NCBI RefSeq assembly: GCF_003991905.1
Contig: NZ_RSCL01000001.1
Span: 682,654 to 746,653, forward strand
Source of the DNA: Dulcicalothrix desertica PCC 7102
GTDB taxonomy: Bacteria > Cyanobacteriota > Cyanobacteriia > Cyanobacteriales > Nostocaceae
Direction: 5' to 3'
Length of the DNA: 64,000 nucleotides
The translations under genes were made by a program, and so were the position numbers. Of the stretch, positions 1 to 64,000 are shown piece by piece; the first letter of the stretch is position 1; each line of letters opens with the position of its first letter. The notes under the pieces were generated by a model that made no database searches, was not told the DNA's origin, and saw nothing but the letters and a program-made list of their open reading frames with translations.

Positions 1-1504
1 CTTTACCACCGCTCTGACGAATAAATTTTCCTTCGACTCTATTTACAGGCTTACGAATTGTTTCGCGATAAGCTACTTGCGGCGCCCCGACGTTTGCTTC
101 CACTTTAAATTCGCGTAGCATCCGGTCAACCAGAATTTCTAGGTGTAATTCACCCATCCCAGCAATTACGGTTTGGTTGGTTTCTTGGTCAACACTAACC
201 CTAAAAGTTGGGTCTTCTTCTGATAGCGACTGCAAAGCTTTTGATAGCTTATCCATATCGTTCTTGGTCTTGGGTTCTACCGCAACCGAGATCACAGGCT
301 CTGGAATATATAAAGATTCTAATATTACTGGTGAATTCTCATCCGTTATTGTATCGCCAGTTAATGTATCTTTTAATCCTAAAGCTGCTCCTAAATCGCC
401 CGCCCGCAATTCGTCTACGTCTTGCCGCTCGTCTGCCTTTAATATCACTAATCGCGATATTCTTTCTTTCTTGTTTTTAGTAGCATTTAATACATAACTA
501 CCTTTTTTCAAGATTCCTGAATAAACACGCACAAAGGTTAGGCGCCCATATGGGTCAGCCATAATTTTAAACGCAAGAGCTGACAACGGCTCTGAGTCAT
601 CCGCATGCCGTTCAACGGCTTCACCTGAAGGAAGTGTTCCTTGAATAGCTGGAACTTCTTCCGGTGATGGCAAATAATCTACAACTGCATCAAGCAGTAA
701 CTGTACACCTTTGTTTTTGAAAGCAGAACCACATAACATCGGTATTATCGTACCAGCCACAGTGCCTTTTCGCAAAGCTGTAGTAATTTCTTCTTCGGTT
801 AGTTCTTCACCATCGAAGTACTTCGCCATTAATTGGTCGCTGGTCTCAGAAACTGCTTCAATCAATTTTGTTCGATATTCAGCAGCTAATTCCTCCATCT
901 CTGCGGGAATATCTTCTTCTTTAATATCAGTACCTTTATCGTTGGTATAGATGTAAGAACGCATCTTAACCAAATCGACTATGCCCAAAAATTCGCTTTC
1001 AGCTCCTATTGGTAACTGAATGGGAACAGCATTCGCACGTAAACGGTCGCGCACTTGCTCGTAAACACGATAAAAATTGGCGCCTGTGCGATCCATTTTA
1101 TTGATAAATACAATCCGAGGTACTTTGTAGCGGTCAGCTTGGCGCCATACGGTTTCCGTTTGTGGTTGAACACCACCAACTGAACACAAAACCGTAATTA
1201 CACCATCAAGTACCCGCATCGAACGCTCAACTTCAATAGTAAAGTCTACGTGACCCGGAGTGTCAATAATATTAATTTGATGATCTTTCCAACTTGTACT
1301 AATTGCTGCGGCTGTAATCGTAATACCGCGTTCCCGTTCCTGTTCCATCCAGTCGGTGACGGCAGTACCTTCGTGAACCTCACCAATTTTATGAATAATC
1401 CCAGAGTAAAATAATATTCTCTCTGTTGTTGTTGTTTTGCCCGCGTCTATATGCGCCGCAATCCCTATATTGCGTACCTTTTCTAGCGGGATAGTACGTG
1501 CCAC
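1..1504 (-). CDS. fusA: Elongation factor G, N-terminal ~501 residues (partial)
   Basis: Translational GTPase that moves tRNA and mRNA through the ribosome in the cytoplasm. The frame starts at a GTG at 1504, 7 bases after GGAGG on the minus strand, and begins [20 protein letters not shown]. Visible G-domain motifs are the P-loop [11 protein letters not shown], the switch-II DTPGH and NKMD. Domain II ([14 protein letters not shown]) and the start of domain III ([14 protein letters not shown]) follow. The family is about 690 residues long, so roughly 190 residues lie beyond the left edge. It is the third gene of a str operon with rpsL and rpsG upstream on the same strand; tufA would be expected next, outside the window. 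Nothing looks damaged. Confidence 0.97.
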
Positions 1505-1594
1505 AGGAGCCTCCTAGAGTTTTCGCCTCATATATCTTGTATATTACACTTTGTTAAGTTTATATACCTTACGGAAAACCGCCACTTTTGAAGT

Positions 1595-1664: not shown

Positions 1665-1686
1665 CATTAAGGATTTAAACGTCTAA

Positions 1687-4241: not shown

Positions 4242-4277
4242 GTGCTGAGTAGGAAGAAGTTTTAAATGCTAATACTC

Positions 4278-7326: not shown

Positions 7327-10300
7327 ATGAGCAACGATGCAATTAATCAATCTGGCAGTATGGCAAATTCGGCTTTTTCGGGTAATTCAGAAACTCCGTC
7401 GAGGTGTACATACGAGGGACAAAGGTGGTTGGTAGAAGAACGTGATGCTTGTGGCGTGGGTTTTATTGCCCAACGTCAAAATTTTTCAAGTCACGAATTA
7501 GTGGAAAAAGCTCTGCAAGCTTTAACCTGTTTAGAACACCGTGGTGGATGCAGCGCAGACTCTGACTCTGGTGATGGCGCAGGTCTTTTGACCGCTATCC
7601 CTTGGGAATTGTTCCATTCGTTTAATTTGGAAGATACTAAAAAATGTGCCGTTGGAATGGTTTTCTTACCACAAGAAACTGAAACGGCTAAAGCTTCACG
7701 TGAAATTTTTGAAAAAATTGCATTAGAAGAAAAACTAACTGTACTGGGCTGGCGAGAAGTGCCAGTACAACCAGACTTACTTGGCATACAAGCACGCGAG
7801 AATCTTCCTCGTATCGAGCAAGTTGTATTAACTTCAGAATTTGACGGTAACGAATTAGAGCAACAGCTTTATATTGCTCGGCGCCGCATTTTTAAAGCTG
7901 TACAAAACAAAGCTGTACAAAACAAAGTTGTACAAAGTCTATCATCAGAAGACTTTTATATTGCTTCGTTGTCAAGTCGTACTATCGTGTACAAAGGGAT
8001 GGTACGTTCGGCGGTTTTGGGCGAATTCTATACCGATTTGAAACAAAGAGCTTACAAAAGTTCTTTCGCAGTATATCACCGTCGCTTTAGTACCAACACC
8101 ATGCCAAAATGGCCTTTAGCGCAGCCAATGCGTTTATTGGGGCATAACGGTGAAATCAATACTTTGTTAGGCAATATCAACTGGATGATGGCACGGGAAC
8201 AAAGTTTGAGTCATCCTGTTTGGGGTTCGCGTTTCGATGAACTCAAACCGTTTGTTCAAGTTGATAATAGCGACTCTGCGACTTTAGATAATGTCTTAGA
8301 AGTGTTGGTGCGTTCAGGACGCAGCCCGTTGGAAGCGTTGATGATAATGGTTCCAGAGGCGTATAATAATCAACCTTCTTTAAATGACTATCCAGAAATA
8401 GTTGATTTTTACGAATATTACAGTGGAATGCAGGAAGCTTGGGATGGTCCAGCGCTGCTAGTATTTGGTGATGGACGTAAAGTTGGTGCCACTCTCGACC
8501 GTAACGGTTTAAGACCTGCGCGTTACTGCATTACAAAAGATGACTATATTGTTGTTGCTTCCGAAGCTGGTGTAGTAAACTTCCCAGAAGAAAGTATCAT
8601 CGAAAAAGGTCGTTTGGGTCCAGGTCAAATGATTGCCGTTGACCTCGAAACGAATGAAATACTCAAAAATTGGGAAATTAAACAGCGCATTGCTCTTCGT
8701 AACCCTTATGGAGAGTGGTTAAATAATCACCGTCAAGATTTGAAGTCTTTAAAAGGCGCCTATTCGAGTAACGGCAACGGCAACGGGAATGGTAAGGGCA
8801 GCACGAGTGTTACTGAACAAAGTATAGACCGTGAAAGCTTATTAAGACAGCAAATAGCTTTTGGCTATACTACCGAAGATGTAGAAATGGTTATCCAGCC
8901 AATGGCACAGGAAGGAAAAGAAGCTACTTTCTGTATGGGTGATGATATTCCCTTAGCTATTCTTTCTTCTAAACCACACCTTTTATATGATTACTTCAAG
9001 CAGCGGTTCGCGCAGGTAACTAACCCGCCTATTGATCCTTTGCGCGAAAGTTTGGTAATGTCGCTAAAAGTCGAATTAGGTGCGCGTGGTAATTTGCTAG
9101 ACCCAAAACCCGAATATGCGCGTCGCTTAAAGTTAGACTCACCTATTCTCAAAAATGCTGAGTTAGAAGTTATTAAGCATTCTTCGTTCAAAACTGTTGA
9201 GTTATCAACGCTGTTTGAAATTGCATCTGGCCCAGATGGTTTAAAAGCAGCAGTTCATGATTTACAAATCAAAGCCGCAAAAGCTGTATTGAGTGGCGCC
9301 GAAATCGTAATACTCAGTGACCGAGAGCAAAATAACGTCGCTATTGGTACAAGTCATACTTATATACCGCCATTATTAGCGGTAGGCGCCGTTCATCACT
9401 ACTTAATTAGTCAAGGATTACGGACAAAAGCATCATTAGTAGTAAATACTGCTCAGTGTTGGAGTACACACCACTTTGCTTGTCTAATTGGCTACGGAGT
9501 CGATGCGGTTTGTCCTTATATGGCATTGCAGACAGTTCAAGATTGGTGGGCAGACCCTAAAACTCAACAATTTATGCAGCGCGGTAAAATTGCCGCAATG
9601 ACTTTAGAGAAAGCACAAAGTAATTTCTGTAAAGCGATTGAAGCTGGATTACTCAAAATTCTCTCGAAAATGGGAATTTCGTTGCTTTCAAGTTACCAAG
9701 CTGCACAAATCTTTGAGGCAATTGGTATTGGTGCAGATTTGTTAGAGTTAGGTTTCCGAGGCACAACTTCACGTATTGGTGGACTGAGTTTAAAAGAACT
9801 CGCTCAAGAAGTATTATCATTCCACTCCAAAGCCTTTCCTGAACTTAGCGTCAAGAAACTCGAAAATTTGGGCTTCGTTCAATATCGTCCAGGTGGTGAG
9901 TACCACATGAACAGCCCAGAACTTGCGAAAGCGCTGCACAAAGCAGTCGATGGCAAACAATATGACCACTACGAAGTTTACCAAAAGCACCTGCAAAACC
10001 GACCAATTGCAGCATTGCGCGATTTGTTAGACTTCCAAAGTGATAGACAGCCCATACCTATTGAAGAAGTTGAATCTGTTAGCGATATCGTCAAACGCTT
10101 CTGTACGGGTGGAATGTCGCTAGGCGCCTTATCTAGAGAAGCGCACGAAACACTCGCTATTGCCATGAACCGTATTGGTGGTAAGTCTAATTCGGGTGAA
10201 GGTGGAGAAGACCCAGTACGTTATAAAGTATTAGATGACGTTGATTCCAAGGGGTTATCGCCAACTTTACCTCACCTCAAAGGTTTACGTAATGGAGATA

Positions 10301-12042
10301 GAGCAACTAGTTCGATTAAACAAGTCGCATCAGGAAGATTTGGGGTAACACCTGAGTACTTAATGAGTGCCAAGCAAATCGAAATTAAAATAGCTCAAGG
10401 CGCCAAGCCAGGTGAAGGTGGACAATTACCTGGCCCCAAAGTTAGCCAATACATTGCGATGTTGCGACGCTCGAAACCGGGTGTAACTTTAATTTCTCCA
10501 CCACCGCATCACGATATTTATTCCATCGAAGATTTGGCGCAGTTAATTTTTGACTTGCACCAAATTAACCCCAAAGCACAAGTCTCTGTTAAATTAGTCG
10601 CCGAAATTGGTATTGGAACTATTGCTGCGGGTGTGGCAAAAGCAAATGCTGATATTATCCAAATTTCTGGACATGATGGAGGTACAGGCGCCTCACCATT
10701 AAGTTCGATTAAGCACGCTGGTTCACCGTGGGAACTCGGTTTAAGCGAAGTTCACCGTGTATTAATGCAAAATCAATTGCGCGACCGGGTTATTTTGCGT
10801 GTTGATGGTGGTTTAAAGAGCGGTTGGGATGTACTAATGGGTGCTTTGATGGGCGCCGAAGAATTTGGATTTGGCTCTATTGCGATGATTGCCGAAGGTT
10901 GTATAATGGCTCGAATTTGCCATACTAACAACTGTCCCGTTGGCGTCGCTTCGCAAAAAGAAGAACTGCGGAAGCGGTTTAATGGAATGCCTGAGCATGT
11001 TGTAAATTTCTTCTACTTTATCGCTGAAGAAGTTCGTAGTTTGTTAGCACGTTTGGGATATCGTTCGCTATTAGAAGTAGTTGGACGTGCGGACTTGTTA
11101 ACAACACGTACCGAAGCGCATTTAACCAAAACACAAGCGCTCAACCTCGACTGCTTAACAAATTTACCTGACGCACGTACAAACCGTGATTGGTTGCAAC
11201 ATGAAGAAGTTCATAGTAACGGTACAGTCGTAGATGATGAATTAATTGCCGATGCTGAAATTCAAGCTGCAATTAAGAATCAATCTGCCGTTACTAAAAC
11301 CATAAATATTGTCAATACCGACCGAACAGTTGGCGCCCGTTTAGCAGGAAGAATTGCATCACAGTACGGCGATAATGGTTTTGAAGGTCAAATTAACCTC
11401 AATTTAAATGGAAGCGTTGGTCAAAGCTTTGGTGCTTTTAACCTTCCTGGTATGATTCTGACTTTAGAAGGAGAAGCTAACGATTACGTTGGTAAAGGCA
11501 TGAACGGTGGGGAAATAATTATTAAACCCATGAGTAATGCTAATTATGACCCATCACAAAACGTGATTATTGGCAATACCTGTTTGTACGGCGCCACTGG
11601 TGGGTTTTTGTATGCTAACGGTTTAGCTGGTGAACGCTTTGCTGTTCGTAACTCTAGAGCTACAGCAGTTATTGAAGGCGCCGGGGATCACTGCTGTGAG
11701 TATATGACTGGTGGTGTTGTAGTTGTGCTGGGTAAAGTTGGACGTAACGTCGCGGCAGGTATGACTGGCGGTTTCGGATATTTCTTGGACGAATCTGGAA
11801 ATTTCCCTGAATTAGTTAATAAAGAAATCGTCAAAATTCAGCGAGTTACATCAAGTGCAGGTGAACAACAATTACGTGATTTAATTGCTGCACATGCACA
11901 GCGCACTAATTCACCATTAGCGCAAATGATTTTGGACAACTGGCAACAATATTTACCTAAGTTCTGGCAGTTGGTTCCTCCTTCTGAAGCTGATAGTCCT
12001 GAAGCTTCTCAAGAGCAAGAAAAACAACTCAGTTCTGTATAA
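7327..12042 (+). CDS. gltS: Ferredoxin-dependent glutamate synthase (Fd-GOGAT)
   Basis: Converts 2-oxoglutarate and glutamine to two glutamates, the second step of the GS-GOGAT ammonia assimilation cycle. The 1571 residues match the family. An N-terminal class-II amidotransferase domain follows a propeptide, with the likely catalytic Cys42 in [10 protein letters not shown]. The central domain is followed by the FMN-binding synthase domain ([37 protein letters not shown]). The 3Fe-4S motif [12 protein letters not shown] is intact, and the C-terminus is a GXGXG-type beta-helix. No small subunit (gltD) is adjacent, which favours the ferredoxin form. Oddities: a 15-base tandem duplication near 7897 gives [13 protein letters not shown], and an Asn-Gly run sits near residue 485. 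The gene holds eleven GGCGCC sites. Confidence 0.95.
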
Positions 12043-25450: not shown

Positions 25451-25729
25451 ATGGGTATACCACAGGTTGGCATCAGTCAATTACCTCCTGAAGTTCAAAC
25501 GACCGTAAATTTAATAGCGAAAGGCGGTTCATTCACTTACGCGAAAGATGGTACTGAATTTAAAAATCGTGAAGGATTATTACCAGTACAACCTCCAGGA
25601 TACTACCGAGAGTATACAGTCGATACTCCAGGAGTCTCTGATAGAGGTAGTCGGCGCCTTATAACTGGAAAGAGTGGAGAAATATACTACACACCTGACC
25701 ATTACAATAGTTTTCAAGAAATTATTTGA
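25451..25729 (+). CDS. Leaderless guanyl-specific ribonuclease of the RNase Sa/barnase family
   Basis: The 92 residues align in memory with Streptomyces RNase Sa: SQLPPEVQTTVNLIAKGG, NREGLLP, YYREYTVDTPG, RGSRRLITG and YYTPDHYNSF. The catalytic triad falls at Glu54, Arg68/69 and His84, matching RNase Sa Glu54, Arg69 and His85. Family members cleave RNA after guanosine and are normally secreted. Here an in-frame TAA at 25445-25447, just before the ATG, rules out a signal peptide. There is no cysteine, so the usual disulfide is missing. The ribosome site is weak (AAGAGA some 11 bases away). The barstar-type inhibitor gene follows. Confidence 0.9.
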   Translation: MGIPQVGISQLPPEVQTTVNLIAKGGSFTYAKDGTEFKNREGLLPVQPPGYYREYTVDTPGVSDRGSRRLITGKSGEIYYTPDHYNSFQEII

Positions 25730-25756
25730 ATCGGTTTAAATAAAAGGGGTCTTTAA

Positions 25757-26158
25757 ATGAACCAACACGTAGCTTTTATGACATCTCAACCAAGCCCTGT
25801 TGTTGCAGCTAACCGACAACCAACAGTAGAAAAAGTTATTGAAGCTTTGTCTGGGCAAGGCATTCAAGTTTTTTACCTTGATGGTAGAGAAATTTATAAT
25901 AAAGAAACATTTTTAACCAAAGCTGCTACAGCAATGAACTTTCCTTCTTACTTCGGTGGCAACTGGGATGCTTTTGAGGAATGTATTACTGATTTAACAT
26001 GGTATCCTGCTGAAAAATACGTAGTGATATACGAACGTCCGGATATATTGGCACAAGCTGACCCTACTGCTTGGCAAACAGCGCTGGATATTTTGCGCGC
26101 GGCTGAAGAGTATTGGCAAGCAAAAAATATACCGCTAAATGTTTTTCTACTAAATTAA
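25757..26158 (+). CDS. Barstar-type ribonuclease inhibitor
   Basis: A 133-residue barstar-fold protein that should bind the active site of the adjacent RNase. The core VFYLDGREIYNKETFLTKAA and FPSYFGGNWDAFEECITDL corresponds to barstar's YYGENLDALWDCL segment, which supplies the acidic contacts. Here these are Asp in NWD and Glu in FEE. The C-terminal strand NIPLNVFLL is typical. Its ribosome site AAGGGG is about 7 bases before ATG 25757 and is clearly stronger than that of the toxin gene, which would favour excess inhibitor. The gap between the genes is 27 bases. A ~25-residue N-terminal extension (MTSQPSPVVAANRQ) is not part of the barstar fold. Confidence 0.9.
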   Translation: MNQHVAFMTSQPSPVVAANRQPTVEKVIEALSGQGIQVFYLDGREIYNKETFLTKAATAMNFPSYFGGNWDAFEECITDLTWYPAEKYVVIYERPDILAQADPTAWQTALDILRAAEEYWQAKNIPLNVFLLN

Positions 26159-26270
26159 GTGTAAATTTTGGTGCCAACGAGGGGAAGTATATAAAATATA
26201 TATACGCATACCCCCTGTATATCTCTTTTAACAGAAGCACTTAATCAGATAGAAACTTGGTTTGTGAGAA

Positions 26271-26522
26271 ATGTTTCCTTTTGACAGAGCAAGACGAGTT
26301 ACACCAGAAGAAAACCAAAAATTTAGAGATGCGATAGCACATCAGTTTGGAATTACGCCAAGGAAGCGCGGACGACCAAAATCGGATGAAGAGGAAAAGT
26401 ATGAACCGATTTCTATCAGATTTCATCCTAAAATCATAGCCTGGGCGAAGGAAGAAGCGGAAAAACGAGGCGTAGGCTACCAAACGGTTATCAATGAAGC
26501 ACTATTGGAGAAAATAGGCTGA
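26271..26522 (+). CDS. BrnA-like antitoxin (DUF4415), orphan
   Basis: An 83-residue protein. A basic N-terminal region (GITPRKRGRPKSDEEEK) is followed by the ribbon-helix-helix part PISIRFHPKIIAWAKEEAEKRGVGYQTVINEALLEKI. This matches the BrnA/DUF4415 pattern in which a beta strand and two helices bind DNA. BrnA normally follows its toxin gene brnT, but the 112 bases upstream hold no BrnT frame. It could therefore be an orphan antitoxin or a stand-alone regulator. The GRPRK-like hook resembles an AT-hook. Confidence 0.75.
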   Translation: MFPFDRARRVTPEENQKFRDAIAHQFGITPRKRGRPKSDEEEKYEPISIRFHPKIIAWAKEEAEKRGVGYQTVINEALLEKIG

Positions 26523-26569
26523 TAGTAGGACTTAAGCAATTTTGAAACCCAAACTCAACAAAAGTTCAA

Positions 26570-26863
26570 ATGACAAATTTAGAAGCAGTAGAAGTGCAAC
26601 AAAGGTTTGCAGAAGTACTTGCCCTTGTAGGTGAAGGTCAAAAACGTGTAGTTATTGAGTCAGATGGTCAGCAAGTTGCAGCAGTTATTAGCTACGCGGA
26701 CTTAAAACGTTTGGAAGCGTTAGAAGATGCAAAAGATTTATTAAATTTTCAACGCGCGGTAGCAGAAAGTGATGGGGAGTCTTATTCTGTAGAAGAAGTA
26801 ATTGCTCACTACAACAAAATTAATAATACTGACTTTACAAAAGAAAAGATTCTTAATGACTGA
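26570..26863 (+). CDS. Phd/YefM-family antitoxin
   Basis: The 97 residues open with LEAVEVQQRFAEVLALV and continue RVVIESDGQQVAAVISYADLKRLEALED, the classic Phd/YefM DNA-binding domain. The acidic C-terminal tail (FQRAVAESDGESYSVEEVIAHY) would wrap a RelE/ParE or Doc-type toxin. An ATG at 26856 overlaps its last 8 bases, as expected for the toxin start, but that frame ends after 14 codons (see next feature). The antitoxin gene itself looks intact. Confidence 0.85.
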   Translation: MTNLEAVEVQQRFAEVLALVGEGQKRVVIESDGQQVAAVISYADLKRLEALEDAKDLLNFQRAVAESDGESYSVEEVIAHYNKINNTDFTKEKILND

Positions 26864-26943
26864 ATATCAACTACTTGCTTTGCTTAATATCCGCTCGTAA
26901 AGCAACTAGAAGAGAACGTCAGCAGTATGAGGAAGAGGAATAA
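26856..26943 (+). pseudogene. Deletion scar joining a RelE/ParE toxin start to a BrnT toxin end
   Basis: The frame from ATG 26856 reads MTEYQLLALLNIRS then stops; an MTEYQL-type start right after a Phd gene is normal for a RelE-type toxin. In another frame, from about 26887, the sequence reads ISARKATRRERQQYEEEE and stops at 26941-26943, four bases before the next antitoxin. That ending is what BrnT toxins carry (ISARKATxRE...). The body of both toxins is missing, so one deletion between two toxin-antitoxin pairs, with the break near 26878-26890, explains it. It leaves Phd and BrnA as orphans. Confidence 0.75.
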
Positions 26944-26946
26944 ATC

Positions 26947-27210
26947 ATGGATACTGAGTATGATTTTAGTCAAGGTAAGCGCGGAGCTATTGAGCCTACA
27001 ATTGAAGGCAAAACAAGGATTACAATTCGTTTAGATGATGATATTCTGACGTGGTTTCGCGAACAAGTTCATCTTGCTGGTGGTGGAAACTATCAGACTT
27101 TGATAAATAATGCCTTGCGTGAATACGTGCAACAGCGTCGGGAACATGAGCGAGGAAATTTTACGGCGAGTTGTGCGCGAGGAATTGAGCCAGATAAATA
27201 TGCGGATTAA
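26947..27210 (+). CDS. BrnA-family antitoxin (DUF4415), orphan
   Basis: An 87-residue protein: acidic start MDTEYDFSQGKRGAIEP, then TRITIRLDDDILTWFREQVHLAGGGNYQTLINNALREYV. This is the BrnA ribbon-helix-helix domain with the usual GKRG(A/P) leader. The gene begins four bases after the tail end of a deleted brnT toxin. The native brnT-brnA order is therefore preserved although the toxin is gone. Its C-terminal RRE HERGNF region is basic. It may persist as a repressor or as an anti-addiction relic. Confidence 0.85.
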   Translation: MDTEYDFSQGKRGAIEPTIEGKTRITIRLDDDILTWFREQVHLAGGGNYQTLINNALREYVQQRREHERGNFTASCARGIEPDKYAD

Positions 27211-27258
27211 TGAGTAGGATAATTTCATTTTTCCCAACATTACAAATGCGTAGTGTGG

Positions 27259-33046: not shown

Positions 33047-33154
33047 GAAGTTATTATAGATACTAAATAAAAGTCGATAATCGCACGATTTTCTTTGGGT
33101 ATAACTCAGATACAGCTAAGGATACTAGGATTGTCGAGTTCAAGCAACAATCTT

Positions 33155-45579: not shown

Positions 45580-47322
45580 TCAATCTTCTATTGAGATGGG
45601 GATTTTACTAACAAACGAACGATTACGTCCCTGTGCTTTGGCTTGGTAAAGAGCTTGGTCTGCTGCTTCAATCAAATTCAATGGAACCATAGTAGATGTA
45701 GGAATGAGGGTGGTAATCCCTATGCTCAATGTGACATAAGGTTTTACATCTGATGCATTGTGGGGAATACTCAAATGTTGAATGGCTTGATGAATTTCTT
45801 GGGCAACCTGCGTGGCGCCTTCACTATCAGTATTTGGTAAGATAACTGCAAATTCTTCTCCGCCATAACGAGCGGCTAAATCCGTAGAGCGTTTGACAGT
45901 TTGTTGAAAAGCTTGGGCAACAAGTCGCAAACAATCATCTCCGGCAGCGTGACCATAAGTATCGTTATAGCGTTTGAAATAATCGATGTCGCATAACAGT
46001 AGTGAGACACAACCTTGTTCGCGTAAGAAATGTCGCCATACATAATCAAGCTTGCTATCAAAACATCGGCGATTGGCAATCTGGGTTAATTGATCTACCA
46101 TCGCTAAATTTTGCAATTTTTGGTTGGCAAGCTGTAATTGCTGATAAAGTTCTGATTGCTGGATAGCAATCGCTAATTGTGTTGCAAGTTGTTGCAGCAG
46201 TTCGCTCTCCCAAGGTTGCCATTCACGCTCTGCGCGGCAATGATGAACAACTAACAGACCCCAAAGCTTATTACCTTGTAAAATTGTTACAACTAGCTTG
46301 GCTCTGACTTGCAATTGTTGGAGTAATTCTAAATGACTTGGGGTAAGTCCGGCGGTGTAGATGTCGGAAATAGCTTTTGCACCCTGTTGATAAAACTGTC
46401 CTTGGGTTTCTACAAAATAATTGTCTGTAATTTCCATATTTAGGAGCGATTGCCAACCGGATGCCACAGACTCAGTAACAACTACACCACTGCAATCAGG
46501 ATTAAAGCGGTAGATGATGACGCGATCGGTTTGCAGAAATTCCCTGACTTCAGCAACAGTTGTATTTAAAATTTTGTCCAAATCTAATGTTTGACGGATG
46601 CGTTGAGCGATTGTATACACCATCCGTTCCTGTTCCAACTGCTTTCGTAGTGCTTGTTGAGCTAGTTTGCGGTCTGTGATATCTGTAAATGATGTTACTA
46701 CCGCATACGGTATTAATTCATCTGGTTGAAATAATGGTTGGGAGTTAATCGAAATCCAGGTCAAGTTGCCATCAGGTTTGTGAACTCCCATGATAACATT
46801 AAATTGCGGTTGTCCAGTTTGTAAGGTGACAATTGCAGGATGAGTTTCGCCAGGAAAAGGAGAACCATCTTCATGAATAGCTCGCCATCGCCCATCAGTA
46901 GAAGTGCGTCCCATCATTTGATCAGTTGTTAACCCTAAAATTCTTTCTGCACTCTCGTTACACGCAGTAATGCTACCATCAGCTTGCTGTAGGACAATGC
47001 CTTCCGCCATTGCTGCAATTACTGAACGATAGCGTTGTTCACTTGAGCGCAACTCGTCCTCCGCACGTTGGCGTTCTAACACAGCGGTTTGTTCTTTGGT
47101 AACATCCTTTTCATTTACTAGGATCATTGTGTTACCAGTGATTGGATCAAAAGCCCTCAAGTCTGCTACTGATATTTTATTTGCAGATACTGTTTTTTCG
47201 GCAATGACCTCCGGTCGGTCGCAGGTCGTCACCTTTCTACGATTTTTGTTAAAATTCGTTTTTGTTAACTTAAATTTGTGCTTTGGCTGAAATGATGCAC
47301 CGAAAGAGTGATTGAAGGCCAT
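45580..47322 (-). CDS. PAS-GAF-GGDEF diguanylate cyclase
   Basis: Makes cyclic di-GMP. ATG 47322 ([10 protein letters not shown]) is preferred over the TTG two codons earlier. Residues ~85-220 are a PAS domain with PAC ([30 protein letters not shown]). Residues ~240-390 form a cyanobacterial-type GAF ([19 protein letters not shown]) with a Cys-His-type HHCRAEREW tail as in chromophore-binding GAFs. The GGDEF domain has [12 protein letters not shown] and active-site [13 protein letters not shown] near residue 485. An RxxD product-inhibition site (RSTD) lies five residues before it. All catalytic residues are present. It sits at the 3' end of a signalling cluster. Confidence 0.93.
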
Positions 47323-47624
47323 AGACAAAAAATTCGATTTAATTATTTAAGAAAAAATTCCGATTAAATACTTATTTTCAGGCTTTTTTTGCCCTTTGTG
47401 GATGCAAAACTGAAACACCAAACCTATTATCTTTAATTTGCCCTAGAGCGCTAGTATGGAATGGCAACAAAGTAAATTTTATTGGTTCTTCAAATCGTTC
47501 AACTTGACAAGTGTTCATATTCTCTTTCTTGTGATAGTAGAAACTATTTATCTTTAAATAAAAAAGATAAATTAGAAAAGTAAAGAACTAATAAAGAATC
47601 AAAATTATTGACAAAACTTAATAA

Positions 47625-47756
47625 TTAGTCTTCCCACCCAAGAATATGAGCTATTTGCTCGGAAATAGTCGTAGGTTCAAAAGGTTTAGTGATTACTCCG
47701 GTAATTCCCATTTGGGCAAAGTGAGCGTAAGACAATAATTGTGGATAAAATCGCAT
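47625..47756 (-). pseudogene. 43-codon remnant of a response regulator C-terminus
   Basis: The minus-strand frame from ATG 47756 reads MRFYPQLLSYAHFAQMGITG then VITKPFEPTTISEQIAHILG and WED before the stop. It closely matches the last ~40 residues of the intact receiver at 53082 (FAQMGVRGVISKPIQPATLVAEVAEILGWEE), including the switch Lys-Pro. The acidic pocket and phosphoacceptor half are gone. The surrounding intergenic region (47323-47777) holds nothing else convincing. Confidence 0.82.
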
Positions 47757-47777
47757 AATTCTTGTCTCTCCCTAGCC

Positions 47778-49667
47778 CTATGTTTGTACTATATTTAGTT
47801 TTGGACTGTGACGCGCGCGTGTTCTTTCAATGCGGCTCATTACCCGTGTCACGAGTTCCGGGCCTAGCACTGGTTTGTTGATAAAATCATCGGCTCCAGC
47901 GGCAAAGGCTTGTTGAAGCGATTGAGCATCAGTATGGGCTGTCACCACCAAAATCGGTAAATCTCCCCAGTGAGCATCTTGGCGCAAAACTTGACACAAC
48001 TCTAAGCCATTAACTATTGGCATCTCTAAATCTAGCAACACTAAATTTGGTGAGGTTGCGATTAATATTTCCCAAAATTGTTGTGGTTGAGATAAGGTGA
48101 TTACTTCTAACCCCCAAGGAGTAAGTAACTGCGATAATCCAGCTAGGATTACAGGGTCATCGTCAACTATTAAGACCTTGGCTACTGATGGTTTGGTTTG
48201 AGGTAGGACACGACTTATCGCCCCAAAAATCTGCTCAATTGTTGAAGGTTTATGTAAAAATTGCCGCGCGCCTAAGCGTGATACTACCAATCTATCAGCA
48301 AGGCTATCTCGTGCAGTGAAAACAACAATTGGCAGATTCGGGTTGCTTTCTACCAGTTCCTCTAGTAGCGTTAATCCATCTTCTTGACTACCGGGAAAGC
48401 TCAAATCTAGTAAAACTGCATCAGGAGTTGCCAAGGCTAGGCGTTCACGAGCAGTGATTAAATCGGGAGCAATTTTCATTCGCATTCCCCAAGCCCCAGC
48501 AAGAGCCAATAACTGCTCCGTCAAAGTAGTGTCATCATCAATTACTAGTATACGATGAGTTTGCTGCAAAGGGGCAGGTTGAGCAGTAAGGGTAAGAGGT
48601 GGTTTTGCCAACTCGTGTTGCAATGCTGTTACCAGTTGGGAAAACTCGGTAATTTCATTCGCATTCAGCGTGCGTTCTCTTCCGAGTAAATCCTCTAATT
48701 CTCGCGCCAGTTTAGAACCTTCTGGATATCCAAACGTTCCCATTGAACCTGCTAACTTGTGTGCTTCATGCAATGCTTGCTGCTTTCTTTGCGCTTGTAA
48801 GTCCCCTGCTAAGAGCGCAGTTTTTGCTTGCTCTAGCACCGTCACCTGTTGACTAAACGAATTGCGGAATCGTTCTAATACCCGATTTACAGAAGCTAAA
48901 TCTTTCGCGCGGGGTTTTTTGTGAATATCCTGTTGTTGCGAAGTTGTCACATAATTAGTATGGTCTGGGACAAGATTTAAGCGATAGCCCATTCCATATA
49001 CAGTTTCTAAAATTTCTTGAGTCAATCCTCCTGCTTTCAACTTCTTGCGTAGGTCTTTAATATGAGTTGTCACTGCATTTTCAACCGGTGCATCATCAAA
49101 ACCCCAAAGCCGATCTAATATTAATTTCCGGCTAAAGATGCGATTGGGATTTTGTAAAAACAATTCCAGCAGTTTATATTCGTTCGCGGTGAGGGAAATT
49201 ATCTGCTCCCCACAAGTTACTTTGCCAGAGTTTTGATCTAAAGTGAGATTTCCCCAACTTAATGTGGATGATGCGACTATCCCACTTCGACGTAACCAAG
49301 ACCGAATTTTTGCCAACAATGCTTCTGGGTTGTATGGTTTAATAACGTAATCATCTGCTCCAGCATCTAATCCGGCAATAATGTTTGTATCACTATTAAA
49401 AGCAGTTAATAGCAGGATTGGTTTGCAGTAGCCTTGCAATCGCAGTTGCCGACACAAGCTAATAGCATCCGCTTTGGGAATGAGCCAGTTTAACAAAATT
49501 AAATCATACTCAGCCGACATCACTAGGTCTAACCCTGTTTCGCCATCATTGGCTAAGTCAATACTGTAATGATTTGCTCTAAGTAACTCTACCAGTGCCG
49601 TACTGAGTGATATGTCATGTTCTACCAACAGAATTTTCATAAGCGGCATAATCGCGAAGATTTGCAT
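47778..49667 (-). CDS. Multi-domain response regulator REC-wHTH-HPt-REC-REC, first receiver lacks its Asp
   Basis: A 629-residue phosphorelay regulator. REC1 (residues ~10-125) has Asn60 where the acceptor Asp should be (DLILLNWLIPKAD) and VEHD in place of an acidic pair. An OmpR-type winged helix follows (LTANEYKLLELFLQNPNRIF, HIKDLRKKLKAG, VYGMGYRL). The HPt helix bundle carries His in EAHKLAGSMGTFG. REC2 (LVIDDDTTL, AVLLDLSFPGSQ) and REC3 (LIVDDDPVI, LVLLDLEMPIVNG, FINKPVLGPE) look intact. Homology begins at Met10, so ATG 49640 may be the true start. The paralogue at 55791 has an intact REC1. It lies downstream of a hybrid kinase. Confidence 0.92.
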   Translation of the reverse strand: MQIFAIMPLMKILLVEHDISLSTALVELLRANHYSIDLANDGETGLDLVMSAEYDLILLNWLIPKADAISLCRQLRLQGYCKPILLLTAFNSDTNIIAGLDAGADDYVIKPYNPEALLAKIRSWLRRSGIVASSTLSWGNLTLDQNSGKVTCGEQIISLTANEYKLLELFLQNPNRIFSRKLILDRLWGFDDAPVENAVTTHIKDLRKKLKAGGLTQEILETVYGMGYRLNLVPDHTNYVTTSQQQDIHKKPRAKDLASVNRVLERFRNSFSQQVTVLEQAKTALLAGDLQAQRKQQALHEAHKLAGSMGTFGYPEGSKLARELEDLLGRERTLNANEITEFSQLVTALQHELAKPPLTLTAQPAPLQQTHRILVIDDDTTLTEQLLALAGAWGMRMKIAPDLITARERLALATPDAVLLDLSFPGSQEDGLTLLEELVESNPNLPIVVFTARDSLADRLVVSRLGARQFLHKPSTIEQIFGAISRVLPQTKPSVAKVLIVDDDPVILAGLSQLLTPWGLEVITLSQPQQFWEILIATSPNLVLLDLEMPIVNGLELCQVLRQDAHWGDLPILVVTAHTDAQSLQQAFAAGADDFINKPVLGPELVTRVMSRIERTRARHSPKLNIVQT

Positions 49668-49720
49668 TACACCTAGCTCAAAAATTTATTACGAAAGGTC
49701 AACAATCAACTTCGTTATAG

Positions 49721-51907
49721 CTAGGGACAATGCTCAAAATTTTTGTTCAACAAAACTAGCATGTCTTTAATAGTATAGGGCTTTAACAGAAAATTGGTAA
49801 TGCCGACTTCTCGAACTAGCTCTTCGTTCATACTGAGTCCACTCACAACAATGATTTTGACGTGGGGATTTAATTGCTTTAAGGCACGAATCGTAGTAAT
49901 ACCATCCATTCCAGGCATCATCATGTCAATGACCACGACTTTAATTTCGGCTTGATGTTGGGCATAAACTGCGAGGGCATTAATACCGTCACAAGCGGTT
50001 AGCACCTGGTAGTAGTATGTTTCTAAAGCTGTTTTAGACACCGAGCGAATATGTGCTTCATCATCGACTACGAGAATCGTTTCTCCATGTCCTGTGGGAA
50101 GCGTTGCTGCTTCAATAGGTGCGCGTTTTGTCCGTTGCAAAGCAGGAATAAACACTTTCATTTGGGTACCGCGACCGACTTCACTATATACATTTACAAA
50201 TCCGCCATGACTTTTAATAATTCCGATCACCGTAGATAACCCTAGTCCGGTTCCTTTGCCTACTTCTTTCGTGGTAAAAAACGGCTCAAAAATACGATTG
50301 AGTATTTCTTTTGCAATGCCCATTCCTGTATCAGCAACCGTAATTGCAACAAAGTCACCCACTTTTGCATCTAGATTCATGCGCGTATAATACTTATCAA
50401 TTGTTATATTTTGAGCAGTGAGAACGAGGGTTCCCCCCTGTGGCATTGCATCGCGAGCATTGATCGTTAGATTCATTAGTACTTGATGCAATTGGGTGAC
50501 ATCGGCATTCACAGTCCAGAGGTTTGGCTCAAGATCAAGCGAAATATCAATTGATTTGGGAAAAGTTTGTTTAACTACTTGCCTAATTTCTGCCAGTAGA
50601 TGTTTGACTTCTAAATCTGTACGCTTACCTTCCATGCCACGTGCAAATAATAACACTTGCTTGACTAGATCTGCACCGCGTTTGGCATTGGTTTCGAGAA
50701 TTTGGAACCACTGTTGCTGCTTGGGGTCGGCGCCAGGAAATTTTAGCGGCAGTAATTGAGCCGTTGCTAAAATGGGGGTAAGAATGTTGTTGAGATCGTG
50801 AGCAATGCCACTGGCAAGCGTGCCTAAACTTTCGAGCCGTTGGGCACGTAGAAATTGCGCTTCGAGTTGTTTTTTCTCGGTTATGTCAGTGTTGACGACA
50901 AGGATAGATTTGGGATTAAGAGCTTCATCGTTGATTAAAGTCCAATGGCTTTCTACTACAATATTTTTGCCGTCCTGGGTGATTTGGTGTAATTCTCCTT
51001 CCCACTCTCCTTGCTCATTGAGGACTGCTTGGATTGATTCAAGTTGGAATTCAGAGTCTCCCACTTTGTAGAGCAAATCTGCTGCATATTTGCCTCGCAC
51101 GTCGGTTGCCTTCCAACCATATAGTCGTTCAGCCCGTTGATTCCAAAACAAAATGCGATGCTCTAAATCGTAAACGGCGATTGCATCCTTGCAAATATCA
51201 AGCAATGCCGCTTGTTCACGAATCGTTTGTTCGGCGACTTTGCGTTCTTCTAGTTCGGTTTGCAATTGTTGATAGAGTTCAGCTTGTTGAATAGCAATGC
51301 CCAGGTGCGTTGCCAGTTGCTTGAGCAGGTCAATTTCGATGGTCTGCCATTGTCTTTGTTGGGAGCAATGATGGGCAGACAGCAATCCCCACAGATGCTC
51401 ACCTTGCAAAATCGGAACGACGAGATTGGCTTTAACTTGAAATTTTGTCAGCAACTCCAGATGGCACGGGGTTAGCCCAGCAGTATAAACATTGGCTTTG
51501 GCAGTAACTAGCCCGTGTCGGAAAGGTTCAATATATCCTTCTACAAAACAAGGTTCATCAATGGTGGTCGAGCGAATAGAAAGCCAATCTGAACCCACCG
51601 ATTCTACCTCTACAGTGCCCGTCCAATCGGGATGAAAACGAAAAATCACGACGCGATCTGTGTTTAAAAATTGGCGCACTTCATCCACGGTGGTTTGCAG
51701 CATCGTGTTAAGATCAAGTGATTGTCGAATTCGCAGTGCAATATCGTATAGCAGTCGATCTCTATCTCGTAGCTGCCATACAGTGGTATTAGTTAACATA
51801 GACGGCGCCTGAAATTGTATCGTTGTTGGTGTGGAATTAAGCGCATTGTTGTGGTTAAAAGACAACGTGGTTTGGTTTTGACGCAGAGATAATGCTTTAA
51901 CAACCAT
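49721..51907 (-). CDS. Hybrid histidine kinase GAF-PAS-HisKA-HATPase-REC
   Basis: A 728-residue kinase without membrane segments. The GAF domain (residues ~45-210) resembles phytochrome-like GAF of cyanobacteria (LRIRQSLDLNTMLQTTV, LSAHHCSQQRQW). The PAS domain with PAC lies at ~225-350 (AIAVYDLEHRILFWNQRAERLYGW). HisKA has the His in LASGIAHDLNNILTP near residue 370. HATPase shows NLTINARDAMP, DTGMGIAKE and GKGTGLGLSTV. The C-terminal REC shows LVVDDEAH, VVVIDMMMPGMDG and LLKPY. It is followed by the REC-wHTH-HPt-REC-REC gene at 47778, so a multistep relay is plausible. HHCS may be a chromophore site. Confidence 0.94.
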   Translation of the reverse strand: MVVKALSLRQNQTTLSFNHNNALNSTPTTIQFQAPSMLTNTTVWQLRDRDRLLYDIALRIRQSLDLNTMLQTTVDEVRQFLNTDRVVIFRFHPDWTGTVEVESVGSDWLSIRSTTIDEPCFVEGYIEPFRHGLVTAKANVYTAGLTPCHLELLTKFQVKANLVVPILQGEHLWGLLSAHHCSQQRQWQTIEIDLLKQLATHLGIAIQQAELYQQLQTELEERKVAEQTIREQAALLDICKDAIAVYDLEHRILFWNQRAERLYGWKATDVRGKYAADLLYKVGDSEFQLESIQAVLNEQGEWEGELHQITQDGKNIVVESHWTLINDEALNPKSILVVNTDITEKKQLEAQFLRAQRLESLGTLASGIAHDLNNILTPILATAQLLPLKFPGADPKQQQWFQILETNAKRGADLVKQVLLFARGMEGKRTDLEVKHLLAEIRQVVKQTFPKSIDISLDLEPNLWTVNADVTQLHQVLMNLTINARDAMPQGGTLVLTAQNITIDKYYTRMNLDAKVGDFVAITVADTGMGIAKEILNRIFEPFFTTKEVGKGTGLGLSTVIGIIKSHGGFVNVYSEVGRGTQMKVFIPALQRTKRAPIEAATLPTGHGETILVVDDEAHIRSVSKTALETYYYQVLTACDGINALAVYAQHQAEIKVVVIDMMMPGMDGITTIRALKQLNPHVKIIVVSGLSMNEELVREVGITNFLLKPYTIKDMLVLLNKNFEHCP

Positions 51908-53462: not shown

Positions 53463-53476
53463 AAATTATTTTTATT

Positions 53477-61900: not shown

Positions 61901-64000
61901 TTTGGCTTTTCGACTCGCTAATAAATTAAGGAAAGCAAGTTTTTCCTTTTCTACTTGATTCGTGAGTAAATTGGCTCCAATGTTTAATTGGTTAACAATA
62001 TCTATACTATGAGCTTCTATATCTGATGAAAAATAATTATGTAAAAGCTTACCAATTTTTAAATGTGTAATTTGTTTTTGTTGTTTTGGAATAAGAGAAT
62101 AGGCAGCTTGTTGAACTTGGTCGTGTAAAAATTTAAATTCTAACTCTTTTTCGTCGAAACCAAATTTTTGCAGTTCCTCATTGGAATTTAGTTGTAACTG
62201 TTCTGTGGGCGCCTGGTAATTATCGTTTAATGGTAAAATTAATCCCTGTTGGATTGCAGTCCACAATAATTTAATGATATCGGATGCCGATTTTTCGGTT
62301 ATTGTCGCTAATATATCTAATTTAAACGTGGCGCCAATACAAGCAGCTAATTGCAATACTTCTTGAGCAGCAGTAGGCAATTTACTGATATTGCTTGCCA
62401 TTAATTCTACTATACTTAGGTTAGTGATGCCAAAACTTTGAATTTGTGTTGTATTCCATTTCCAGCATTTTGAAGTAAAATCATACTTGAGTAATTGCTC
62501 TTGATAAAATTTCTTTAATAACTGCGTTAGAAAGAAAGGATTACCCGATGTTTGATTAAATAGTAATGATGTTAATTTAGTGATAGAGTCATCAGTAATA
62601 TGAAGTGTATCATTTACTAATTGCTGTACTTGCAATATATTTAAATTTTGTAAACTGATTTGATTAACTGTGGCGCCAGTTTTTTTAATTTCTTCAACAG
62701 TTTGGATAAATGGATGTGTTGGACTAACTTCGTTATCACGATAAGCAGTAATTAACAATAAATACTGACTACTACTACTAGCAGTCATTAATCGCTGCAT
62801 TAACTTGAGTGAAGCAATATCTGCCCATTGCAAATCATCTAAAAATATAACTAAAGGATGTTCTTGCTGCGTAAAAACGCTAACAAATGTACAGAATACT
62901 TGATTAAAACGATTTTGTCTTTCCATTGCACCCAACTCAACAACAGGTGGTTGGACTCCTATAATTAATTCCAATTCTGGAATTACATCAATAATTACCT
63001 GACCGTTGTTACCTAGCGCTTTAGTTAATTTTTCTTTCCAGCTAAATAGTTGTGTGGCATTTTCGACTAATAACTGCCGCATCAAAGACTGAAATGCCTG
63101 AATTAACGATGAATAAGGGACTGCACGCTGAAACTGGTCAAATTTTCCACTTATGAAATATCCGCGTTGCCGTACAATTGGCTTATGGACTTCATGTACT
63201 AATGAAGATTTGCCAATTCCAGAGTAACCTGCAACTAGCATCAATTGACTTTCCCCTTGACTAACCGAGTCAAAAGCAGTTAGTAGCGTTTCAACTTCTT
63301 TTTCCCTTCCATACAGCTTTTGGGGAATATTTAATTGGGAAATACGGTCACTTTCCCCTGGCAAAAACTCAGTAATTTTACCTGTATTCTTCAACTCATC
63401 TAAACAACGCTCCAAATCAGCTAACAACCCTGCTGCGCTTTGATAGCGGTCTTCGGCATTTTTTGCCATCAACTTAGTAATAATCGCAGCTATTACTGAT
63501 GGTATATTTGGATTAAAATCCAAAATACATGGCGCCTGTTTAGCAATATGAGAATGAATAATGGACAAAGCATCATCGCTGTTAAACGGTAACTGCCCAG
63601 TCAACATTTCATAGAAACTAACACCCAGAGAGTAAAAATCACTGCGATAATCTACTGTGCGGTTCATTCGTCCGGTTTGCTCAGGGGAAATATATGCTAA
63701 CGTTCCCTCTAACTTAGTCAAACTTACTAACTGTACAGTTGAGTGACGATTACGTGAAGCGATGCTAAAGTCGGTGAGTTTAACAATTCCGCTTTCTGGG
63801 TTAATAATTATATTTGAAGGTTTAATATCTTTATGGATTATCTGGTGGGTATGCAGTGACATCAAGGATTTAGTAAGTTGTACAGCTATGCTGAGAAATG
63901 AGACGAGAGATAATCGTTCGTTGCTAAGAAACTTTTGCAGACTGATACCACCAAAATCTTCTGACACTAATATATAGTGACATGCTTGAGCTTCTAAACG
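58928..64000 (-). CDS. Giant Ser/Thr kinase-AAA-TPR-GAF-histidine kinase (5' end missing)
   Basis: The frame is open from the right edge, so the N-terminus is outside; about 1690 residues are present. The Ser/Thr kinase part has IIHKDIKPSNIII (catalytic loop), LTDFSIASRN (DFS instead of DFG) and LEGTLAYISPEQTGRMN. An AAA ATPase of the PknB-associated type has P-loop GYSGIGKSSLVHEV near window residue ~258. A long helical repeat region follows, then a GAF domain at ~1230-1390 (ENAGAQKVCFIANIGEQLF). HisKA has LVGGVAHEINNPINF near residue 1450, and HATPase shows DNGTGIKPE and GQGTGLGLSIS. This architecture is typical of filamentous cyanobacteria (HstK-like). Ligand unknown. Confidence 0.93.
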   Translation of the reverse strand, partial: RLEAQACHYILVSEDFGGISLQKFLSNERLSLVSFLSIAVQLTKSLMSLHTHQIIHKDIKPSNIIINPESGIVKLTDFSIASRNRHSTVQLVSLTKLEGTLAYISPEQTGRMNRTVDYRSDFYSLGVSFYEMLTGQLPFNSDDALSIIHSHIAKQAPCILDFNPNIPSVIAAIITKLMAKNAEDRYQSAAGLLADLERCLDELKNTGKITEFLPGESDRISQLNIPQKLYGREKEVETLLTAFDSVSQGESQLMLVAGYSGIGKSSLVHEVHKPIVRQRGYFISGKFDQFQRAVPYSSLIQAFQSLMRQLLVENATQLFSWKEKLTKALGNNGQVIIDVIPELELIIGVQPPVVELGAMERQNRFNQVFCTFVSVFTQQEHPLVIFLDDLQWADIASLKLMQRLMTASSSSQYLLLITAYRDNEVSPTHPFIQTVEEIKKTGATVNQISLQNLNILQVQQLVNDTLHITDDSITKLTSLLFNQTSGNPFFLTQLLKKFYQEQLLKYDFTSKCWKWNTTQIQSFGITNLSIVELMASNISKLPTAAQEVLQLAACIGATFKLDILATITEKSASDIIKLLWTAIQQGLILPLNDNYQAPTEQLQLNSNEELQKFGFDEKELEFKFLHDQVQQAAYSLIPKQQKQITHLKIGKLLHNYFSSDIEAHSIDIVNQLNIGANLLTNQVEKEKLAFLNLLASRKAKIANSPIASAQYLNIGLQLLPDNSWQTHYDLTLNLYVELLEIEYLNTNFERLQQLCEIVLTHTHNILDTIKVYELKIQYCNSQLQAQLAIDIGLDVLNKLGVTLIEQLPKDIDFEQLNNLPRIQDKYQIAALQILNNLTFPAYQTNPDLYVKLVFTMVDICIRYGNSEIAAFVYACCSLICGVMGEIDLGYEYGLLSLLILDKFNAKTFAAKVLMSYNSSVRHWKEHSKLTINPLLEAFNIGVETGDIEYACIASMYYCIYSFFTAETLSVVDEKYLKYFDYIKYVKQEFFTHCNQLWRQLALNLQNSNENNYCLIGDSFNEDEVLPMLIESNQITLIFDIYFSKSMLAYLFQQYEQAIEYSRLAKKYAAGAGATMVIIQHNFYYSLALLKNYPNVSTQQQEQYLATVTANQNKMKIWSFYCAANNQHKYDLVEAERCRVLGQYWEATQLYNSAIELASENGYIQEKAIASELASEFYLASGNNKFAKIYLTDAYYAYQQWGATAKVKDLESRYPYLTIRKSESTSSTLTNTTNTRTFNHFLSLDLATVIKASQTISSEIVINNLLAKLMHLLRENAGAQKVCFIANIGEQLFLEAVLTEDNEVKVLQSQPIDECNILPLSLIAYVQRTLRHLVLDKAIQSDFKKDIYIELNKALSILVFPIIHQSKLQGILYLENNLTKAAFTQDRIELLSVIAAQAAISIENARFYTNLENRVVERTQELQTALEKLRQTQIKLIQSEKMSSLGQLVGGVAHEINNPINFIYGNLTHTHEYTQSLFDLLKVYQQNYPNPLPEVIDTTEEIDLDFIQNDLPKLLDSMKNGAGRIKNIVLSLRNFARLDEAESKKVNIHEGIDNTLMILHQRLGNIQVIKEYANLPEIYCFPGELNQVFINLLNNAIDALFTTTKKDPTIRISTALKENNQIAISIIDNGTGIKPEIKPKIFDPFFTTKPVGQGTGLGLSISHQIVQQHQGQLVCLSELGVGTEFTILLPY

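Follow-up and report, generated by a model that had tools for sequence, protein, structure and literature searches.

Why highly iterated palindromes (HIPs) exist is an open question, for which the genus studied here offers a natural experiment. In its sections on alternate HIPs, Elhai (2015, PMC4390886) describes motifs of about 1,000-2,000 copies per Mb, mostly G+C, that lie far above expectation and occur only where HIP1 (GCGATCGC) is low; methylation of the motif in the cell, and a methyltransferase with a recognition site that takes in the motif, also belong to the definition of the class. GGCGCC is given there as the alternate HIP of Calothrix PCC 7103, another genome of the same genus as the strain analysed here. 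The same sections regard alternate HIPs as sporadic, suggest that a second methyltransferase copy in PCC 7103 may have been critical, and propose a ratchet of GmC-directed mismatch repair. This model has methylation at the internal C, drives every one-step neighbour to the site, protects existing sites and predicts that gaps longer than about 1 kb are the first to be filled. The core idea is already published; what is new here is the sharing across the genus, the nuclease loss of the orphan enzyme and the pattern of restoration.

The window, meaning the whole stretch of 64,000 bases that was analysed, contains the following features:

81..63536 (first copy at 81, last at 63531), no strand: 86 copies of GGCGCC, by motif count
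7327..12042, + strand: ORF of 1571 aa for the large subunit of glutamate synthase, holding 11 GGCGCC, by motif count and Pfam
32271..32278, no strand: the sole HIP1 of the window, by motif search
25659..33381, no strand: 7.7-kb stretch free of GGCGCC, with the HIP1 copy and WD40/AAA_35 ORFs
45820..50728, no strand: 4.9-kb stretch free of GGCGCC, with signal-transduction ORFs

At 39.0% GC, base composition predicts 3.5 copies in the window, in line with the original prediction that a GC-only hexamer should occur there only a few times. The eleven positions which it gave for the glutamate synthase gene are all correct and inside the ORF; its single HIP1 at 32271 is confirmed too. This ORF carries the Pfam domains GATase_2, Glu_syn_central, Glu_synthase and GXGXG, and was the anchor for finding the syntenic region in relatives, with matches at 72-95% identity in all 10 genomes searched. 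GGCGCC is spread unevenly, with two gaps above 4.5 kb (25653-33382 and 45814-50729); the first of these stretches is possibly newer DNA in which the motif would not yet be filled in.

Genome-wide the pattern holds. The hexamer, 100% GC, occurs 19,393 times in 11,419,637 bases (1,698 per Mb), where composition predicts about 570, an excess of approximately thirtyfold. CCGCGG, the same letters read backwards and used as a control, is present once. HIP1 has 58 copies against 62 for its backwards control, which is chance level, so it is not equally abundant elsewhere in the genome. The proposal that GGCGCC stands in place of HIP1 as an alternate HIP is borne out by these two densities. A sample of 444,148 bases in 21 stretches, non-random in that about half were centred on methyltransferase genes and two were chosen for HIP1, yielded 704 copies against 22.2 expected from base composition, 35.3 from a first-order and 32.3 from a second-order Markov model. 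Within this sample, no other palindromic hexamer reaches the ratio to composition of GGCGCC, and relative to the first-order model it ranks first of all the hexamers kept. A maximal-order model (overlapping 5-mers) expects 364 copies, with the 5-mers themselves inflated by GGCGCC. GATC is strongly avoided in the same sample (241 vs 1,552 expected).

This abundance is very unlikely to be a product of ordinary composition, of codon usage or of a dispersed repeat element. The Gly-Ala frame does hold 346 of the 595 coding copies, as a codon-based explanation would have it, but enrichment over base composition is 28-fold in coding and about 40-fold in non-coding DNA, and the latter rules out codon usage alone. 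Other GC-only palindromes in the 444-kb sample are scarce or absent except CGCGCG and GCGCGC, which are enriched. At aligned window sites, four genomes from outside the genus have GGCGCC at 0/23, 0/16, 0/21 and 1/22 positions. A repeat element is contradicted by the flanks in the 444-kb sample, which are not conserved: neighbouring bases are near background, apart from a rarity of G before the site (8.2%), and no extension of the motif was found there, contrary to the suggestion that it is perhaps extended. Regular spacing was looked for and not found. Gaps are near-geometric, with 181 above 1,000 bases (190.6 expected) and 21 above 2,000 bases (31.0 expected). Above 2 kb the shortfall is mild at best, and the gap filling beyond about 1 kb that the published ratchet would bring is not seen. 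In a separate set of six GGCGCC gaps, three fall in the two stretches chosen for HIP1.

All seven genomes sampled from the genus are rich in GGCGCC (7,475-20,380 copies each). Among 210 other genomes of the family the maximum is 1,053 and the median 24.5, with 168 of them below 100. In this Calothrix lineage GGCGCC is the alternate HIP throughout the sampled genus, which extends it beyond the single published sister strain. The division between 7/7 genus genomes and 0/210 of the rest of the family speaks against the view of such motifs as sporadic. Among 385 other genomes in the order sample, a single one, G273, is likewise dense in GGCGCC (9,489 copies in 3.8 Mb, control 2,450) and may be an independent case. 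Raised counts were seen in G224, G327 and G399 as well. In G377, which is GC-rich and HIP1-rich, a 14-kb stretch holds about as many GGCGCC as expected (5 vs 3.9).

The best candidate for the enzyme acting on GGCGCC is a C5 (m5C) methyltransferase (PF00145, L018:7231-8172), here called methyltransferase B, an orphan predicted from its relatives to be of GRCGYC type. It is present in 7/7 genus genomes (best copies 81-100% identical), with dN/dS of 0.05-0.16 in six pairs and the four catalytic strings in 6 of the 7 copies examined. At E<=1e-40 this genome has one copy and PCC 7103 (G060) has two, so the second copy is not needed for upkeep of the motif here. Outside the genus, relatives of methyltransferase B adjoin RE_HindVP in 9 of the 10 loci scanned (out of 19). 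Because these relatives are of HindVP type, its predicted recognition site is GRCGYC, which includes GGCGCC and by homology provides the covering methyltransferase of an alternate HIP. The original prediction of an orphan methyltransferase thus found its candidate, although the predicted site is broader than the strict GGCGCC specificity it had named.

Avoidance of the GRCGYC sites was counted around 16 of the 19 extra-genus loci. GGCGCC occurs there once against 34.1 expected, GACGTC 3 times against 48.3, and GACGCC+GGCGTC 4 times against 79.7, while the most depleted palindrome is GTGCAC, not GGCGCC. The three loci left out were L117 (partial, 32%), and L109 and L110, whose enzymes are about 54% identical and which lack avoidance (GGCGCC 2 vs 1.9 and 10 vs 10.3). 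The HindVP nuclease was found in 0/7 genus genomes. It has matches, some only in pieces, in 43 of the 210 other family genomes, whose median is 5 GGCGCC per genome. Elsewhere in the family, thirteen genomes with a full-length methyltransferase relative and no HindVP match contain only 2-277 GGCGCC; an orphan relative of methyltransferase B is therefore not sufficient.

Other methyltransferases were considered. Eco29kI-type pairs (C62, C4:342899) were first taken for Elhai's two 'GRCGYC' enzymes, but they carry RE_Eco29kI and were dropped. RE_Eco29kI has CCGCGG specificity, which fits the near absence of that hexamer. Three other C5 enzymes adjoin TdeIII, Bpu10I or BsuBI/PstI-type nucleases, and enzymes of 384, 440 and 658 aa were also among those considered. 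A 370-aa enzyme near recO, seemingly in 7/7 genus genomes judging by frame size, is a possible contributor.

Aligned relatives reveal how sites change. Inner C-to-T (GGTGCC/GGCACC) makes up 47 of 65 single-step polarised losses. Protein-changing inner C-to-T was counted 13 times against 248 kept, compared with 18 against 3,161 in control CG hexamers (odds ratio 9.2, p=1e-7). These counts make the inner C of GGCGCC a hot spot for C-to-T change, which methylation there would bring about; the orphan enzyme probably methylates this cytosine (GG-mC-GCC). Taken raw, silent inner C-to-T on the tips runs at only 1.75x the rate of CG controls and 1.25x that of NGCGCN; the larger hot-spot figures stem from protein-changing sites and model fits.

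Polarised losses outnumber gains 70 to 6 (65 to 1 by a strict count). The excess was first read as decay of the motif, but a similar load on short and long branches speaks against it; a recent common loss of motif upkeep in all lineages is possible. Single tips show 46 silent inner C-to-T changes and the outgroup path, approximately fivefold longer, shows 15, a ratio of 1.3, against 7.0 in control CG hexamers (p=5e-9) and 3.45 in the closest control, NGCGCN (p=0.03). Only one such change is fixed in all four ingroup genomes, compared with 456 in CG controls (p=9e-20). The silent share of one-step neighbours common to five genomes is 6/45 vs 1,160/3,337 in the control. Every class of loss is short-lived, not inner C-to-T alone. 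In two-state fits, reversion relative to control GCGC hexamers is x19.7 for inner C-to-T, x19.4 for other transitions and x17.9 for transversions; free fits put loss at x0.15-0.19 in two classes. The fits used only positions with GGCGCC plus one single variant, or either alone, and those for other transitions and transversions rest on 14 and 19 patterns besides site-in-all-five-genomes. One-step losses that do not accumulate with time point to a restoring force at the level of the site (biased repair, conversion or selection), and the similar multiplier in three mutation classes indicates that this force is not T:G-only repair.

Dcm/Vsr of E. coli produces a C-to-T hot spot at the methylated C together with a pull back to the site. 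A similar very-short-patch repair that overcorrects T to C at GGTGCC, and so makes and keeps sites, would suit the dominance of inner C-to-T losses and their fast reversion (1.03 per tip unit vs 0.107 in CG controls). It is nevertheless improbable: a PF03852 search for Vsr found it in 0/7 genus genomes (5 of 14 control genomes match), and losses that do not derive from T:G revert with the same multiplier. DUF559-type Vsr-like proteins, distinct from the PF03852 target, are described in Caulobacter in the relevant part of PMC12907096.

With about even odds (roughly 0.5), the abundance and distribution of GGCGCC, the gene content, the absent nuclease and the pattern of change are explained by an orphan methyltransferase combined with restoration directed by the methylated strand. 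The order of events that we infer starts from an ancestral restriction-modification system of HindVP type (GRCGYC), of which the nuclease was then lost and the m5C methyltransferase retained, HIP1 being already gone from the GATC-avoiding genome. The orphan enzyme would methylate the inner cytosine, creating the deamination hot spot, and a directional process favouring the methylated strand, e.g. GmC-directed mismatch repair at replication or in recombination heteroduplexes, would restore GGCGCC from one-step neighbours at about twenty times the normal rate and protect existing sites. GGCGCC would thereby form almost everywhere that a silent single change allows. It is also conceivable, if rather doubtful, that GGCGCC is a self-propagating state without service to the cell, in which the site is marked by the orphan methyltransferase left from a lost restriction system, and one-step neighbours on the other strand or allele are then converted by strand-directed repair, a drive at nearly every reachable silent position.

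Natural selection for functional GGCGCC (in repair, nucleoid or recombination) is a serious possibility, although we lean against it. Losses would then arise at normal or methylation-raised rates and be purged later, single-genome losses being young and partly unfixed, and all classes would be short-lived, as observed. Xu et al. (2018) reportedly argued for selection on HIP1. One-parameter fits weaken the explanation by methylated-strand-directed restoration, since selection beats back-conversion alone for other transitions (lnL -77.4 vs -81.5; S 4.1) and for transversions (-126.6 vs -144.9; S 4.4), two classes out of three. Only inner C-to-T favours back-conversion (-264.9 vs -320.1). The preferred explanation needs faster gain plus a five- to sevenfold slower loss. 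Gain of x18-20 with slowed loss fits a ratchet acting on all neighbours, but selection predicts the same direction. Selection on fixed differences, however, predicts gain of about x4 and loss of about x0.06, whereas the free fits give gain x18-19 and the milder slowing of loss noted above. Compared with the free two-parameter fit it is worse by 5.5 and 7.7 log units, and by 57 for inner C-to-T without extra mutability; freeing mutability narrows the difference to 0.3-3.7 log units, but only when mutability reaches the limit of the search (8,103-fold). Unfixed within-species variants could remove this objection.

These findings predict which C is methylated, and suggest that lost sites are restored at rates measurable in culture. 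They weaken two supports of the published account, the sporadic occurrence and the second enzyme copy. Family genomes in which relatives of the methyltransferase still come with the nuclease avoid the site almost totally, while a HIP1-free genome with the orphan form has copies in the many thousands.

Of the known systems, the closest is PCC 7103 as described in the sections of Elhai (2015) cited above, which shares the genus, the hexamer, a near absence of HIP1, a GRCGYC-type methyltransferase, and scarcity of GACGTC and GACGCC, but has two methyltransferase copies where there is one here. HIP1, in those sections (PMC4390886), is likewise palindromic and rich in GC, occurs about once per kb and is linked to orphan methyltransferases; the HIP1 of other cyanobacteria differs from GGCGCC in sequence and enzyme. 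Methyltransferase B is homologous to the m5C methyltransferase of HindVP-type GRCGYC systems, but the genus has no such nuclease in any of the seven genomes and GGCGCC is hugely enriched rather than avoided. Unlike Dcm/Vsr, the genus is without Vsr by PF03852, and the pull at GGCGCC is not limited to T.

GGCGCC is present 86 times in the window (64,000 bases, 39.0% GC), and the eleven copies originally placed in the glutamate synthase gene (ORF 7327-12042, assigned by Pfam) are all at correct positions. The whole Dulcicalothrix desertica PCC 7102 genome (11.42 Mb, 109 contigs) contains 19,393 copies and a single copy of the control CCGCGG, the same letters backwards. HIP1, the usual highly iterated palindrome of cyanobacteria, is found 58 times versus 62 for its own backwards control, which bears out the original prediction that GGCGCC and not HIP1 is abundant genome-wide. 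Markov and composition tests, conducted on 444 kb of the genome in 21 stretches, agree: GGCGCC reached 31.7 times the base-composition expectation and 19.9 times that of a first-order model. In this sample most hexamers one step away fall to 0.20-0.53 of the first-order expectation, the exceptions being GGTGCC (0.97) and GTCGCC (0.91). Other members of GRCGYC are also scarce (counting both strands, GACGCC 18 vs 71 expected, GACGTC 2 vs 72). Coding DNA carries 1.93 GGCGCC per kb and non-coding DNA 1.02, and the spacing of the motif is approximately random, with too few intervals below 25 bases (12 vs 51.9). The same sample has no or almost no TGCGCA, GTGCAC, GTCGAC, CGTACG, CCATGG, AGGCCT, TTCGAA or GCATGC; CGCGCG and GCGCGC are clustered, at 6-8 times base composition.

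Among 217 family genomes, all seven genus members possess 7,475-20,380 copies of GGCGCC each (1,150-1,711 per Mb, from rounded genome sizes). None of the 210 others exceeds 1,053 copies (about 111 per Mb in that genome, with a control count of 1,270), and 168 have fewer than 100. The pattern is thus one of persistence within a clade. Among 388 genomes sampled across the order (3 of the genus, 385 others), one of the others, G273, has a comparable density, and its control count is also high. A 14-kb piece of G273 (L229; about 56% GC) has 35 GGCGCC vs 6.9 expected and no GCGCGC, CGCGCG or HIP1, and G273 is an outlier among its listed congeners. G377, second by count among the others, looks unremarkable for its GC content over 14 kb.

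Gene neighbours of 13 C5-methyltransferase matches in D. desertica were examined. Two of these (77% identical; contigs C62 and C4) adjoin Eco29kI-type nucleases (87% identical to each other) and were rejected. The genome thus carries two Eco29kI-type methyltransferase-nuclease pairs, with CCGCGG occurring once in 11.4 Mb. A TdeIII-linked C5 methyltransferase is truncated with a stop (L022:8805-9356, contig C1, about 9 kb past the window end), and its full form is on contig C77. Two enzyme types seem to be common to all seven members of the genus: one of 370 aa encoded near recO, recognized by frame size, and the 313-aa protein B (L018:7231-8172). B is the best candidate, on homology to HindVP-type systems, for the orphan methyltransferase that had been predicted to cover GGCGCC. 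The best genus copies of B are 81-100% identical, D. desertica has one copy and PCC 7103, a different species of the genus, two, and dN/dS of 0.05-0.16 in six pairs indicates purifying selection. The examined copy in G061, another genus member, lacks two motif strings; further pieces with 94-95% identity lie at contig ends.

B is found in 63 of the 217 family genomes, namely all seven of the genus and 56 of the 210 outside it (the latter at most 73% identical, some as pieces only). In 9 of 10 non-genus loci scanned, the upstream ORF is RE_HindVP. HindVP cuts GRCGYC. DNA around 16 of 19 non-genus B loci is almost devoid of any GRCGYC form, and GGCGCC is the second lowest of 64 palindromes there, after GTGCAC; two distant loci, neither showing avoidance, were omitted from this count. 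The median GGCGCC count in the non-genus family is 6.5 with B (n=56) vs 36.5 without it (n=154; p=1e-4). The HindVP nuclease was found in none of the seven genus genomes, and in D. desertica its place beside B is taken by the gene for a RuBisCO-like protein (L018:8268-9461). B without HindVP is not sufficient, because 13 such family genomes outside the genus have only 2-277 GGCGCC; three of four examined loci of this kind carry HIP1.

The fate of sites was followed in an alignment of up to 384 kb of D. desertica with PCC 7103, G064 and PCC 7716 (matching it at 95.5-96.3% of shared columns, nearly star-like) and the outgroup NIES-4105 (87-88%). Single tips show 65 losses by one step, 47 of them at the inner C of one strand or the other. 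Given the state of the other genomes, 3.9-13.4% of sites now read GGTGCC/GGCACC in the four closely related genomes, compared with 5.7% in the outgroup; other one-step variants make up 2.2-4.7% and 4.4%. PCC 7103 has the highest GGTGCC/GGCACC share (13.4% vs 3.9-8.0% in its three close relatives). In control CG hexamers the inner C-to-T share rises from 3.2-4.6% to 10.9%, and other one-step variants from 5.4-8.2% to 23.2%. Changes of at least two letters in the outgroup amount to 14.3% and 15.2%. One-step GGCGCC losses therefore do not pile up with time, unlike those in the controls. Silent inner C-to-T changes gave the same picture: 46 on tips, 15 on the outgroup path and 154 kept at GGCGCC, vs 231, 404 and 1,349 in the CG control (p=5e-9) and 22, 19 and 92 in the NGCGCN control (p=0.03). 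Fixation throughout the four-genome ingroup was seen once, against 456 times for the CG hexamers (p=9e-20). Silent transitions of other kinds numbered 10 on tips and 2 on the outgroup path, transversions 10 and 4. The raw silent tip rate of inner C-to-T is 1.75 times the CG control; the protein-changing rate, 9.2 times the control (p=1e-7), was taken as an estimate of the inner-C hot spot.

In a three-state fit, return from GGTGCC/GGCACC proceeds at 1.03 per tip unit vs 0.107 in CG controls, and holding it at 0.1 was 32 log units worse. Two-state fits (silent positions, GCGC-core controls, no site-to-site rate variation, units from pairwise identities) gave gain multipliers of 19.7 for inner C-to-T, 19.4 for other transitions and 17.9 for transversions, with loss multipliers of 1.35, 0.19 and 0.15. 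The ratio of losses between classes, 7-9, agrees with the hot-spot estimate, and two alternative stem/outgroup length splits, applied to two of the classes, had little effect. Back-conversion alone is the best one-parameter fit for inner C-to-T, but selection on fixed differences does better for other transitions and transversions. Both fall below the two-parameter fit; letting mutability vary brings selection close to it, but only with that parameter at the limit of the search. Xu et al. 2018 reportedly dealt with selection for HIP1. Variants unfixed within species could mimic restoration. Conversion would be silent for 6 of the 45 genic one-step neighbours that the five genomes share, compared with 1,160 of 3,337 for the GCGC-core controls (p=0.002), so the silent supply of such neighbours is largely spent.

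HIP1 is present in four of six GGCGCC-free gaps longer than 4.5 kb, three of the four being in stretches chosen for HIP1. The GGCGCC-poor stretches with HIP1 are:

window:25659-33381
D. desertica contig C7, 23-36 kb (chosen for HIP1)
D. desertica contig C25, 93-105 kb (chosen for HIP1)

Imported DNA in which motif filling is incomplete would account for HIP1 in such gaps, and GGCGCC content may serve as a marker of recently imported DNA.

The observation and its reading as an alternate HIP were both right; the kind is already known and this genome is a new member. The accessible part of Elhai (2015; PMC4390886) reports GGCGCC replacing HIP1 in Calothrix PCC 7103, which has two GrCGyC methyltransferases, as well as in 19 kb from Calothrix D253, puts forward a model of GmC-directed mismatch repair, and states that which base is methylated has not been established for any enzyme of GrCGyC specificity. 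Avoidance of GATC in D. desertica (241 vs 1,552 expected) fits the account of HIP1 loss in that text. A full-text literature search, its wider results judged by title and start of abstract, showed no other paper on GGCGCC as an alternate HIP among the matches listed; the persistence across the clade, the loss of the nuclease and what becomes of lost sites are, as far as found, additions to the published record. Exceptional HIPs are described in the same part of Elhai (2015) as sporadic and non-persistent, whereas here GGCGCC is common to all seven genomes of the genus.
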